Source of the DNA: Qipengyuania sediminis
GTDB lineage: Bacteria > Pseudomonadota > Alphaproteobacteria > Sphingomonadales > Sphingomonadaceae
NCBI RefSeq assembly: GCF_004358425.1
Contig: NZ_CP037948.1
Coordinates: forward strand, 248,001 to 312,000
Reading direction: 5' to 3'
DNA length: 64,000 bases
The translations under genes were made by a program, and so were the position numbers. The number at the start of each line of letters is the position of its first letter. Within the stretch, counting starts at the first letter, position 1. Shown here piece by piece: positions 48,393 to 52,263 of this stretch. The notes beneath the pieces were generated by a model. That model ran no database searches and was not told the origin of the DNA. It saw only the letters and a list, made by a program, of their open reading frames with translations.

Positions 48393-49151
48393 CTAGAGAA
48401 AGGGCTCCTCGCCGGGGCGATGGATGCCGCATTCGACCTTGTCCCACCCCGCCCAGCGGCCGCTGCGTGCGTCTTCGCCCGGGGCGACGGGGCGAGTGCA
48501 GGGGGAGCAGCCGATTGAGGGGTAGCCCCGTGCCACCAGCGGGTGCGCGGGGAGGTGGTGTTCGGCGGCGTAGCGCGCGATCCGCGCCGCATCCCAATCG
48601 ATCAGCGGATTGATCTTGAGGCGGCCCGCTGCGTCCGCGGTGTCGATCTCGAAACGCGGGAGATGCGCGCGGGTGCTGGCCTGGAACGCCTTTCGCCCGG
48701 TCAGGCTGGCGTCGAAGCGGGAAAGCGCGCGGGCAAGCGGGCGGACCTTGCGCAGCTCGCAGCAGCCATCGGGATCGTAGGACCAGCGCAGGCCGTTGGG
48801 GTCGCGCGCCGCCAGATCGCCGGCGCGGGGACGAAGCACGCCGACATTGGTAAGGCCCAGATGCGAGATCAGCGTGTCGCGATAGGCCAGCGTCTCGGCA
48901 AAATGCTTGCCGGTGTCCAGAAACAGCACCGGAGTGGATGGCGCGATGCGGCCGACGAGGTGAAGCAAGACCGCGCTTTCGGCGCCGAAGCTGCTGACCG
49001 CGGCGACCTCGCCCGCCAGGCCTTCGCTGAGAACGCCATCCAGCATCGTTTCGGTGTCGCTGCCGCGGAAGAGATTGTTGAGCCGGACCGCGTCATGCGC
49101 GGTGAAGCGCGGCCCCGCGTCGATGCGGTCGATGGCGCGGTGGATGTTCAC
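48393..49151 (-). CDS. cysH: Phosphoadenylyl-/adenylyl-sulfate reductase, 4Fe-4S type
   Basis: 252 aa from the GTG at 49151, overlapping the DUF934 stop as GTGA; the frame to 49283 would overlap that gene by 135 nt. PP-loop features SSFGAESAVLLHL and FLDTGKHFAET, and the arginine-rich loop. Cys pairs in DGCCELRKVRPL and SIGCSPCTRPV indicate a 4Fe-4S cluster, usually linked to APS rather than PAPS reduction. The catalytic Cys is in the C-terminal ECGIH. It converts activated sulfate to sulfite for CysI, encoded two genes upstream. Confidence 0.94.
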   Translation of the reverse strand: MNIHRAIDRIDAGPRFTAHDAVRLNNLFRGSDTETMLDGVLSEGLAGEVAAVSSFGAESAVLLHLVGRIAPSTPVLFLDTGKHFAETLAYRDTLISHLGLTNVGVLRPRAGDLAARDPNGLRWSYDPDGCCELRKVRPLARALSRFDASLTGRKAFQASTRAHLPRFEIDTADAAGRLKINPLIDWDAARIARYAAEHHLPAHPLVARGYPSIGCSPCTRPVAPGEDARSGRWAGWDKVECGIHRPGEEPFL

Positions 49152-49573
49152 CGCTGGCGCAGCGCCCAGATCGGCACTCGCGCATCCGCCGCGGGCTGAT
49201 AGACCGCGGGCCAGCGCGACAGCGCCGCATCGCGTGTCGCCGGATCGAAGGGCTGGTCGGGATCGAATCCGTCGAAGCCGCAACGGCGCAAGAAGGCAAG
49301 CTGGTCGACAAGCACATCGCCCACAGCGCGCAGCTCGCCGTCATAGCCCGCCTCTCGCAGGATGCGCGCACTGGAATAGCCGCGCCCGTCGCCGAAGGAG
49401 GGAAAGTGCACCTCGATCAGCTGCAGCCGCGCCAGATGCGGAACCAGCGCGCGCGCATCGTCGCCCGGTTCGACCCGCACGGCCACGGCGTCGGGTTGGC
49501 CCAGAAAGGCATCGACGGTGATGCCGGGATGGTCCGCCGGTTCGTCGTCGCGGAAGCGGAGGAGATCAGCCAT
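49148..49573 (-). CDS. DUF934 protein, sulfite reduction accessory
   Basis: 141 aa from the ATG at 49573, overlapping the cysI stop by 8 nt. The central VHFPSFGDGRGYSSARILRE followed by GELRAVGDVLVDQLAFLRRCGFD is characteristic of DUF934, a small alphaproteobacterial family encoded between cysI and cysH. It probably assists sulfite reduction (electron delivery or assembly); this is inferred from constant genomic context, not from catalytic motifs. Confidence 0.9.
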   Translation of the reverse strand: MADLLRFRDDEPADHPGITVDAFLGQPDAVAVRVEPGDDARALVPHLARLQLIEVHFPSFGDGRGYSSARILREAGYDGELRAVGDVLVDQLAFLRRCGFDGFDPDQPFDPATRDAALSRWPAVYQPAADARVPIWALRQR

Positions 49574-51221
49574 AAAGCGCCGCCTTGAACGGCTCGACGC
49601 CGATCCGCCGGTAGGTGTCGAGGAAGCGCTCGTTTCCCTTGCGCGCGGCAAGATAAACCTCGGTTGCCGTTTCCACCGCATCGACGATGCCCGCCTCGTC
49701 GAAACCGGGGCCCACGATCTTGGCCAGGCTGGTGTCCTCCGCCCCGCTGCCGCCAAGCAGCAGCTGGTAGTTCTCGGTGCCCTTGCGATCGACGCCGAGG
49801 ATGCCGATGTGGCCCGCGTGATGATGCCCGCAGGCGTTGATGCAGCCCGATATCTTGAGCTTCAATTCGCCTAGCAGCGACGTCTTGCCGGTTACGGCGA
49901 AGCGTTCGGCAATGCGCTGTGCGACAGGGATCGAACGGGCATTGGCGAGGCTGCAATAGTCGAGCCCCGGACAGGCGATGATGTCCTCCACCGTGTCGAT
50001 ATTGGCCGCGCCCAGCCCGGCTTCGTCCAGCGCCGTCCACAGGCCGCTGAGATCGGCCCGCCGCACATGCGGCAGGACGATGTTCTGGGTGTGGGTCACG
50101 CGCAATTCGCCGGTCCCGAAAGATTCGGCGAGATTGGCGAGGGTTCGCATCTGATCGGCGCCGGCATCGCCCGGGATGCCGCCCACGGCTTTCAGGCTGA
50201 TGATCGCAGAGACATAGCCCCGCTGCTTGTGCGGGTGGATGTTCCGTTCGACCCATTCCGAAAACCGGGCCTCGTTCCCCTCGAGCGAAGTCGAGAGGCT
50301 GCTTGCCTGTGTCTCGACTTCGCTCGACAGGAACGGAGGGGGGGTGAAGAAGGATTGTATTCGTTCGAGCTCCGACCCCGGCGGCTCGATGCCGAGCGTC
50401 AGCAGATGCACGAACTCGGCCTCGACCTGGCGGCGGAATTCGTCTGCGCCCAGATCGTGGACCAGGATCTTTATCCGGGCCTTGAACTTGTTGTCGCGCC
50501 GTCCCTGGCGATTGTAGACCCGCAGCACCGCTTCTGTGAAGGTGACGAACTGGCCGATCGGCACGAACTCGGCGATGCGGGGCGCGATCATCGGGGTGCG
50601 GCCCATGCCGCCGCCGACCCAGAACTCGGCGCCTAACTCGCCGCCGCGCTGGACGATGCGGATGCCGATGTCGTGCAATCGCATCGCCGCCCGGTCGCGT
50701 TCGGAAGCGATCACCGCGATCTTGAACTTGCGCGGCAGGGCGCTGAATTCGGGATGGAAGCTCGACCATTGCCGCAGCAGCTCGGCATAGGGGCGCGGGT
50801 CCACCACCTCATCCGCCGCCGCACCGGCGAAATGGTCGGAGCTGATGTTGCGGATGCAATTGCCGCTGGTCTGGATGGCGTGCATCTCGAAGGCCGCGAG
50901 ATCGGCGAGGATGTCGGCGGCCTCCTCAAGCTCGATCCAGTTATACTGGATGTTCTGCCGCGTGGTGAAATGGCCGTAGCCGCGGTCGTAACGCTCCGCG
51001 ATGTCGGCAAGGCACCGCATCTGCGCTGCGCTCAGCGTGCCATAGGGAATGGCGACGCGCAGCATATAGGCGTGAAGCTGGAGATAGAGCCCGTTCATCA
51101 GCCGCAAGGGCTTGAACTGCTCCTCGGTCAACTTGCCTTCGAGCCGCCGCCGGGCCTGGTCGCGGAACTCTTCCACCCGCTCGGCGACCATGGCGTTATC
51201 ATAGGTGTCGTAGCGGTACAT
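49566..51221 (-). CDS. cysI: Nitrite/sulfite reductase hemoprotein with an in-frame palindromic insert
   Basis: 551 aa from the ATG at 51221 (ATGA overlap with the DUF2849 gene). Ferredoxin-like and siroheme domains are duplicated: YGHFTTRQNIQYNWIEL and RVTHTQNIVLPHV. The siroheme/4Fe-4S ligands are in ACPGLDYCSLA (C-x5-C) and GCINACGHHH (C-x3-C). It reduces sulfite to sulfide. Residues of about 296-316 (FLSSEVETQASSLSTSLEG) are encoded by a 63-nt palindromic repeat at 50273-50335, in a linker before the second half. The frame is intact, so the enzyme is probably active with a surface loop. Part of cobA-DUF2849-cysI-DUF934-cysH. Confidence 0.95.
   Translation of the reverse strand: MYRYDTYDNAMVAERVEEFRDQARRRLEGKLTEEQFKPLRLMNGLYLQLHAYMLRVAIPYGTLSAAQMRCLADIAERYDRGYGHFTTRQNIQYNWIELEEAADILADLAAFEMHAIQTSGNCIRNISSDHFAGAAADEVVDPRPYAELLRQWSSFHPEFSALPRKFKIAVIASERDRAAMRLHDIGIRIVQRGGELGAEFWVGGGMGRTPMIAPRIAEFVPIGQFVTFTEAVLRVYNRQGRRDNKFKARIKILVHDLGADEFRRQVEAEFVHLLTLGIEPPGSELERIQSFFTPPPFLSSEVETQASSLSTSLEGNEARFSEWVERNIHPHKQRGYVSAIISLKAVGGIPGDAGADQMRTLANLAESFGTGELRVTHTQNIVLPHVRRADLSGLWTALDEAGLGAANIDTVEDIIACPGLDYCSLANARSIPVAQRIAERFAVTGKTSLLGELKLKISGCINACGHHHAGHIGILGVDRKGTENYQLLLGGSGAEDTSLAKIVGPGFDEAGIVDAVETATEVYLAARKGNERFLDTYRRIGVEPFKAALYG
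50273..50335. repeat. Palindromic repeat inside cysI
   Basis: Arm 50273-50296 and arm 50312-50335 are 24-nt inverted repeats matching at 22 of 24 positions, with a 15-nt loop. The core TCGAGCGAAGTCGAGA is typical of intergenic palindromes in this bacterial group, yet here it lies in frame inside a conserved gene. Confidence 0.85.
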
Positions 51222-51517
51222 CAGATCACCCAGCTTCCGGCCGAGGGGTCGGCTGGCTTCAGCGTGAGATCGGGTCGGACGGTGGGCCCGAGCGCGCGGA
51301 TCCGGTCCTTGATATGCGCAGGCCGGGGGATGCCGCCATCGAGCACGGCGTCGATCGCATAGGCGGCGTTGACGCGCCGCGCCGCTTCCTCGCGGCCGAT
51401 CACGCGTTCCTCCTCGCCGGTCGCGTCGACAGCTTCCGCGAGATGCGGCGACCAGTGCGTGCCCGCCCACCAGACGACTGCGCCGGTGCGCAGGTCATTG
51501 CCGGTCAGGATGCGCAT
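51221..51517 (-). CDS. DUF2849 protein
   Basis: 98 aa from the ATG at 51517. Sequence MRILTGNDLRTGAVVWWAG followed by WSPHLAEAVDA and a C-terminal PTVRPDLTLKP matches DUF2849, a small family in alphaproteobacterial sulfite reduction operons between cobA and cysI. Its start overlaps the cobA end by 13 nt and its stop overlaps cysI. The molecular function is unknown. Confidence 0.88.
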   Translation of the reverse strand: MRILTGNDLRTGAVVWWAGTHWSPHLAEAVDATGEEERVIGREEAARRVNAAYAIDAVLDGGIPRPAHIKDRIRALGPTVRPDLTLKPADPSAGSWVI

Positions 51518-52263
51518 GAGGTGACCTCCAGCGCGAGCTCGGTGTCCTCGCGCGCGGTCACCTCCCCGATCACGATCAGTGCAGGGCTGACGACCGCCTC
51601 TCGCGCGACAAGATCGGGGAGCGCGGCGAGCAGCCCGCGCAGCACGCGCATCTGCGGGCGGCAAGCATTCTCTATCACTGCCAGCGGCATGTCGGGGGCA
51701 AGGCCATCGGCCATCAGCTTCTCGGCGATCTGCGGTGCGGTAGCCACCCCCATGTAGATAACGAGGGTGCGCCCCTTGCCCGCCAGCCCCGCCCAGTCCT
51801 GCTCGTCGAGCCCGCGGCATTGCCCGGCGACGAAGCTGACAACGCTCGCGGCGTCGCGGTGGGTCAGCGCGATCTGCGCCGCCGCGGCCGCGCCGCCCGC
51901 GGCGCTGATTCCGGGGACTACCTCGAGCGGAACACCTGCGGCGCGCGCCGCTTCCGCCTCCTCTCCGCCCCGGCCGAAGATGAAGGGATCGCCGCCCTTC
52001 AGCCGCACCACCTCGCGCCCCGCGCGCGCCTCGCGGATCAGCAGCGCATTGATTTCCGCTTGCGGCATGGTGTGCCGCGCGCGGGACTTGGCGACCGAGA
52101 TCAGCCGCGCGCGAGCAGGTGCGAGCGCCAGGATCGCGGGATCGACCAACCCGTCGTGCACCACCAGTTCCGCGCGTGCGAGCAGCCGCGCTGCGCGCAA
52201 GGTCAGCAGCTCGGGATCGCCCGGCCCCGCGCCCACCAGCCAGATTTTGCCCTGTGTCGCCAT
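51505..52263 (-). CDS. cobA: Uroporphyrinogen-III C-methyltransferase
   Basis: 252 aa from the ATG at 52263. SUMT motifs: WLVGAGPGDPELLTLRA at the N-terminus, VVHDGLVDP, VRLKGGDPFIFGRGGEEA, and VVPGISAAGGAAAAAQIALTHR. It makes precorrin-2 on the way to siroheme, the CysI cofactor, which explains its place at the head of the operon. There is no fused CysG-type dehydrogenase/chelatase domain, so another enzyme must finish siroheme. The 99 nt upstream shows no riboswitch I recognise. Confidence 0.95.
   Translation of the reverse strand: MATQGKIWLVGAGPGDPELLTLRAARLLARAELVVHDGLVDPAILALAPARARLISVAKSRARHTMPQAEINALLIREARAGREVVRLKGGDPFIFGRGGEEAEAARAAGVPLEVVPGISAAGGAAAAAQIALTHRDAASVVSFVAGQCRGLDEQDWAGLAGKGRTLVIYMGVATAPQIAEKLMADGLAPDMPLAVIENACRPQMRVLRGLLAALPDLVAREAVVSPALIVIGEVTAREDTELALEVTSCAS

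Follow-up and report, generated by a model that had tools for sequence, protein, structure and literature searches.

The window, by which we mean the whole 64-kb stretch of DNA analysed here, carries on its reverse strand (48393-52263) what we take to be a sulfur-assimilation run, comprising a cysG-like methyltransferase gene, a DUF2849-like gene, cysI, a DUF934-like gene and a cysH-like gene. A palindromic element lies inside cysI and, as the first-pass annotation had it, leaves the frame unbroken: the open reading frame runs without interruption through all 551 codons. The features concerned are the following:

49566..51221, reverse strand: cysI, coding for a siroheme/[4Fe-4S] sulfite (nitrite) reductase of 551 aa; Pfam domains NIR_SIR and NIR_SIR_ferr match in two stretches apiece
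50262..50348, reverse strand: inter-half linker, from invariant F292 to invariant F320; P295 and W323 also invariant
50273..50335, reverse strand: family A palindromic element (PFLSSEVETQASSLSTSLEGNE), cysI codons 296-317, 63 nt
50312..50335, reverse strand: first arm as transcribed (CGTTCCTGTCGAGCGAAGTCGAGA)
50297..50311, reverse strand: loop of 15 nt between the arms
50273..50296, reverse strand: second arm as transcribed (TCTCGACTTCGCTCGAGGGGAACG)
49953..49973, reverse strand: first pair of cluster-site cysteines, C417 and C423, invariant in the alignment
49830..49844, reverse strand: second pair of cysteines, C460 and C464, in SGCINACGHHH, invariant in the alignment

The two NIR_SIR halves and the four cluster cysteines identify the product as a siroheme sulfite/nitrite reductase, with scores under the NCBIfam cut-offs for all 11 named models matched. 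The closest solved folds retrieved by Foldseek are NirA (1zj8, TM 0.65), which is the best match, and plant nitrite reductases. Cysteines C417, C423, C460 and C464 are invariant in an alignment of 39 sequences and are presumably, from their role in the family, the cluster/siroheme-binding residues; the claim that all siroheme and Fe-S ligands are kept thus holds as far as the conservation of these cysteines goes, the ligand role itself being our assumption. In the 2.416-Mb genome, assembled as a single contig, a search with CysI returned CysI itself as the sole match. Compared with three neighbours, the gene body has dN/dS values of 0.17, 0.14 and 0.18, versus 0.08-0.11 among the neighbours themselves. 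Such purifying selection suggests that the enzyme is probably working, and the somewhat higher values of the window gene make some relaxation of selection possible.

The two 24-nt arms of the element are complementary at 22 of 24 positions (92%), and the 83-nt region around them has a predicted folding energy of -52.2 kcal/mol, compared with a mean of -33.6 for shuffled sequences (z -5.0; none of 200 shuffles equalled it), so that the inverted repeat of the first-pass annotation is borne out by both the arm search and the fold. The palindrome occupies the linker joining the two halves of the enzyme, flanked by F292/P295 and F320/W323, which are invariant in the same 39 sequences. Searches of Pfam and NCBIfam found no known protein domain in this linker. 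In the AlphaFold2 model (mean pLDDT 76.5, pTM 0.79), residues 303-310 form one of five segments with pLDDT below 50; linker flexibility is only suggested by this model, since four other segments score equally low and the low value is therefore weak evidence.

Palindromic cassettes in the CysI linker

For comparison, we assembled 50 CysI sequences from the same genus (57 of the 60 genomes searched gave a match, and seven matches were left out), 80 named homologues and further sets, 210 loci which merged into 192 distinct CysI. Taken from ELERI as far as the RN motif, the linker segment measures 42 aa in the window versus 33-35 aa in 159 of the 192, where a shorter and different, ordinary linker, such as EADASSDIDRSDP, lies at the same place. 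Alignment thus does single the segment out, and neither of the two outcomes that would have spoken against the first-pass annotation (a conserved sequence of similar length in homologues from distant genera, or a palindrome without other genomic copies) was encountered. The 'about 21 extra residues' that it proposed are not there, however: some 22 codons replace about 14 (13-15) ordinary ones, and the protein is therefore only 7-9 residues longer than most homologues.

Palindromic cassettes are present in the linker of 23 of the 192 distinct CysI (22 of 191 besides the window), a figure that is no frequency because the sampling was not random but enriched for long alleles, with ten loci picked for length and two genera searched for holding cassettes. 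The cassettes fall into four families:

Family A (11): window, Aurantiacibacter xanthus L099, L179, L180 (decayed), L261, L263-L268
Family B (6; HPSE.WDL...DPS.RW.D): L109, L120, L181, L182, L271, L276
Family C (4; RHSREG, RHPR.GGD...LDSRLRGND): L183, L184, L185, L315
Family D (2): L107, L135

Families were assigned by eye, least surely for L180 (about 12 shared residues) and for L183 and L184, in which the left half is C-like and the right half D-like. The majority of B and C cassettes start with CGTC. Among the 50 same-genus CysI, the window alone carries a family A cassette. In two others of this genus, L071 and L072, the linker is longer (40-aa segment), differs in sequence (RAADEASASNEPAKTASEPAF in L071) and shows no clear palindrome; together with L186 (36 aa), these could be old decayed inserts and were excluded from the cassette count. 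In a family-wide draw of 397 genomes, 370 had a CysI match and, among the matches listed, seven besides the window are at least 1656 nt long, all with a cassette, one of them decayed.

Long palindromes are concentrated in the linker. With 15-nt arms (at most one mismatch, loop below 60 nt), 12 of the 192 CysI genes, all cassette-bearing, have one in the linker and two of 192 have one elsewhere in the gene; with 18-nt arms (at most two mismatches), the corresponding numbers are nine and one. At 12-nt arms the contrast is gone (14/192 versus 66/192), and discrimination therefore requires long arms. Outside the linker and the C-terminus, insertions of at least 4 aa are found in two of the 192 sequences (L072 and L149). 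The one in L149 (Novosphingobium) is a 9-aa insertion, around KPIKVLADGTKEAG, near consensus position 339.

Families A, B and C match repeats resident in genomes that carry them. When matches to these three families were counted, with patterns that are unequal in length and in the mismatches allowed and with the cassette's own matches included, the most abundant of the three families was that of the cassette in six of the seven genomes with an undecayed cassette. The exception is G429, which has a C cassette, yet more B matches (12) than C matches (8). In G306, the genome with the decayed A cassette, there are no family A matches.

Dispersal, reading frame and possible movers of family A

The palindrome had been described as one of an intergenic type, to be checked by searching for further genomic copies. 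This is indeed what the 83-nt query retrieved from its own genome: four further clear copies (E 8.2e-12, 8.2e-12, 6.5e-10 and 9.5e-8, weaker matches with E above 0.1 being left out of the copy count), all intergenic and near the ends of open reading frames, as judged from the reading frames rather than from annotation. Two more single-arm matches, with two mismatches each, lie at C1:381578 and C1:2264848, and within the 64-kb window the core is matched by the element's own two arms only. Across the genus, 19 of 60 genomes, the window genome included, have a match at E of at most 0.01. First-look candidates are most numerous in G039 (114) and G040 (53), where the arm pattern matches 149 and 75 times, respectively (one element may give two matches), and the reversed pattern not once. 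From 60 loci around exact matches (40 of G039 and 20 of G040), we defined common ends, CCGTTCGTGTCGAGCGAAGTCGAGACAC ... CGAACGG (CCGTTCG...CGAACGG), enclosing a variable middle and a right half of several kinds; some copies consist of the left half alone. Each half is an imperfect palindrome, and the element is therefore an inverted pair of REP-like units. At L239 and L240, AGGTCAGGA.AGC after the intergenic copies resembles the bases that follow the A cassette in CysI of genus g42, and by this likeness the family A element may extend past CGAACGG.

Stop codons as the cause of the constant frame are not supported: any one of the six frames is free of them in 37-44 of the 44 full copies of family A, and in 24 of the 44 all six are open. 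The ten clear A alleles of CysI nevertheless share one frame (L180 was assigned by that frame), which hints at selection for a Ser/Thr/Glu-rich linker peptide, with the proviso that these alleles are not independent and perhaps represent three contexts, namely, the window, L099 and the g42 group.

As a candidate mover, we considered a RAYT (Y1) transposase. No Y1_Tnp match was found in the searched window genome or in the element-rich G022, G032, G038, G041 and G047; five of the 60 genomes of the genus have Y1_Tnp matches, and among those five G039 and G040 are the only element-rich ones. Of ten stretches around Y1 genes, one (L173, G039:C8) contains a family A half copy nearby, a left half at position 703, some 0.8 kb away from a Y1_Tnp gene with full score that starts at 1501, and nine contain none. 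A RAYT mover thus does not account for the genomes besides G039, and for G039 a link to family A is conceivable from L173. Another Y1-transposase gene region of the same genome (L259, G039:C3:42763-46098) has palindromes of its own, of the AATTAGGGACAGTCCCTAATT type, unlike family A. CGTC was likewise considered as an insertion target and dropped, since it occurs in only 8 of 159 ordinary linkers (18 nt tested). In DNA alignments of neighbours, the cassettes stand in for codons and thus leave no clean empty site for comparison; no target duplication was apparent there.

Origin and spread of the linker cassettes

For 145 of the 192 CysI, we built a quick tree with the linker columns removed, 47 distant rows having been dropped beforehand; 55 of its 142 inner branches are weak and the window row is among the long ones. 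This tree requires 13 changes to explain presence or absence of a cassette, and 16 to explain the family label. Among the 23 cassette rows, families A and B are scattered and cluster no better than when labels are shuffled (as low in 330 and 212 of 500 shuffles), whereas C is clustered (6/500) and D, with two rows, is uninformative (500/500). Strongly supported branches alone force four changes for A, three for B, one for C and two for D. Taken jointly, the four families need nine changes (22 of 200 shuffles as low). The D-bearing L107 and the A-bearing L266 are sisters with a support of 98, and tree neighbours with and without a cassette include L099 and L118/L119, L261 and L195, L120/L182 and L290, and L135 and L280. 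The swap of the linker is visible in DNA alignments of such neighbours.

In genus g42, the sequence to the right of the linker largely follows the cassette. Of the 13 cassette alleles compared, ten share the right flank H[KR]APGY, A and B alike, the two D alleles have HRHPDY, and the remaining one, L267, has a flank like that of ordinary alleles; all 12 ordinary alleles have H[KQ]HDA and none H[KR]APGY. Over the 20 codons right of the linker, identity is 0.855 between A alleles versus 0.792 between A and ordinary alleles, with little such split in the gene bodies (left, 0.882 versus 0.878; right, 0.872 versus 0.860). This pattern suggests that linker blocks have been exchanged within g42 by short-tract recombination. 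Given the shared flanks, the changes on the tree overstate the number of true insertions; the four different sequence kinds suggest about four or more captures, some of them perhaps by one palindrome replacing another.

We consider it highly probable that a dispersed palindrome entered the DNA of the CysI linker and now codes for it, at a site recurrently taken by other palindromes and with spread by recombination. A small family A palindrome would have entered the DNA coding for the linker between the halves and become the linker code, the ordinary codons being lost at entry or later, so that the length of the linker changed little. The site would tolerate a palindrome because the linker is probably flexible and lies away from the cofactor ligands. 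In related genera, the same linker would have taken up other palindrome kinds, and the block, once there, could move between strains via short-tract homologous recombination. A bolder form of this proposal, which we put forward tentatively and rate at somewhat below an even chance, is that the CysI linker is a capture and exchange site, where unrelated palindrome families repeatedly become linker cassettes, one of the six frames is selected and the block crosses species by short-tract recombination.

That every cassette sits between the same invariant residues, and that in g42 the H[KR]APGY flank is common to A and B in 10 of 13 cassette alleles and to none of the 12 ordinary ones, would also be expected if one ancestral insert had been inherited, had diverged into all the present cassettes and had been lost elsewhere, as in one view of the Rickettsia repeats RPE-4/6/7. 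We regard this as unlikely: A, B, C and D differ in sequence, the first three all have dispersed counterparts in the carrier genomes, the D and A sisters are joined at 98, and ordinary linkers are interspersed among the cassette rows. Still less probable, in our view, is that the hairpin is kept for a function in the RNA, such as pausing between the halves or stabilising the message, rather than merely tolerated as linker code. Its strong predicted fold and its location between the two halves would suit such a role, but L180 has an A-like coding segment in which arm scans find no inverted repeat, L263 differs at several arm positions, and an ordinary linker is present in 159 of the 192 distinct CysI. 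Furthermore, among seven g42 A alleles (21 pairs), linker dN/dS lay at 0.12-0.49 in 10 pairs, values that agree at least equally well with selection on the peptide. Chance or an assembly artefact, for which one could cite only that the species is represented by one strain, is very hard to reconcile with a single-contig genome, a fold z of -5.0, dispersed copies at E 8e-12 and the recurrence of family A at this position in further genera.

Relation to known palindromic repeats

Palindromes in frame are known from Rickettsia RPE and from REP repeats in open reading frames. RPE/WPE are described as palindromes dispersed between genes and also in frame within conserved protein genes, and a guanylate kinase with such an insert was reported active with changed substrate affinity (PMC2229807). 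The cysI element is similar in belonging to a dispersed palindrome family and in lying in frame in a conserved gene, most orthologues of which lack it. It differs in its size (63 nt, below the 105-146 bp given for RPE in PMC2229807), in a host that is not Rickettsia, in replacing linker codons and in a site common to clearly different families across genera.

REP and CGTC-tagged repeats are presented as short palindromes, often in inverted pairs and mostly intergenic, with some in open reading frames; examples in that account are tRNA synthetase and truB genes of E. lithoralis (spelled so there) and S. alaskensis, which are species of sphingomonad type, and recB of two Xanthomonas, with a REP at about the same site (Di Nocera 2013, PMC3733652). 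The word 'sulfite' is absent from its main text and, among the open-licence literature matches listed, no title concerned palindromes in a sulfite reductase gene. Family A resembles REPs as short inverted-pair palindromes that are mainly intergenic (by open reading frames and codon-position G+C), and most B and C cassettes resemble the CGTC-tagged type in their first bases. However, family A has neither a GTAG nor a CGTC tag, ending instead in CCGTTCG...CGAACGG, and the RAYT association of REPs has no counterpart in the window genome, with 0 Y1 matches. With MITEs, the element shares small size, inverted repeats at the ends and the lack of a gene of its own; a partner transposase, however, was not found, and the alignments, which offer no clean empty site, revealed no target duplication.

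What is new here is the use of one linker site by separate palindrome families across genera, by replacement more than by addition. In Rickettsia japonica, different RPE groups occur at one locus, and for RPE-4/6/7 a hotspot and a common origin were both weighed, so that, in that account, different palindromes at one gene position were left as either a hotspot or one diverged insert (PMC3767692). Here one site has clearly different kinds, of which three match resident repeats, and relatives whose linker is ordinary are available, so this question becomes testable outside Rickettsia. The case also shows a route from short dispersed repeats to parts of proteins, and linkers joining enzyme halves may be swapped as modules.

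In-frame use of family A is rare, yet not confined to cysI. A strict search located 58 family A elements, and a loose rule assigned a right end to 45; 26 have some frame open for at least 60 aa on both sides, and only two of these look, by eye and codon-position G+C, like genes read through the element. In L200 (G039:C1:83584-85673), the element at 995-1096 codes for residues 127-161 of an E2 acyltransferase, between the lipoyl (5-77) and E3-binding (170-202) domains, and is read in the CysI frame (PFVSSEVET). In L224 (G039:C25:27269-29286), half a family A element at about 995-1055 lies in ThiC and is read in another frame (VRVERSRDT).
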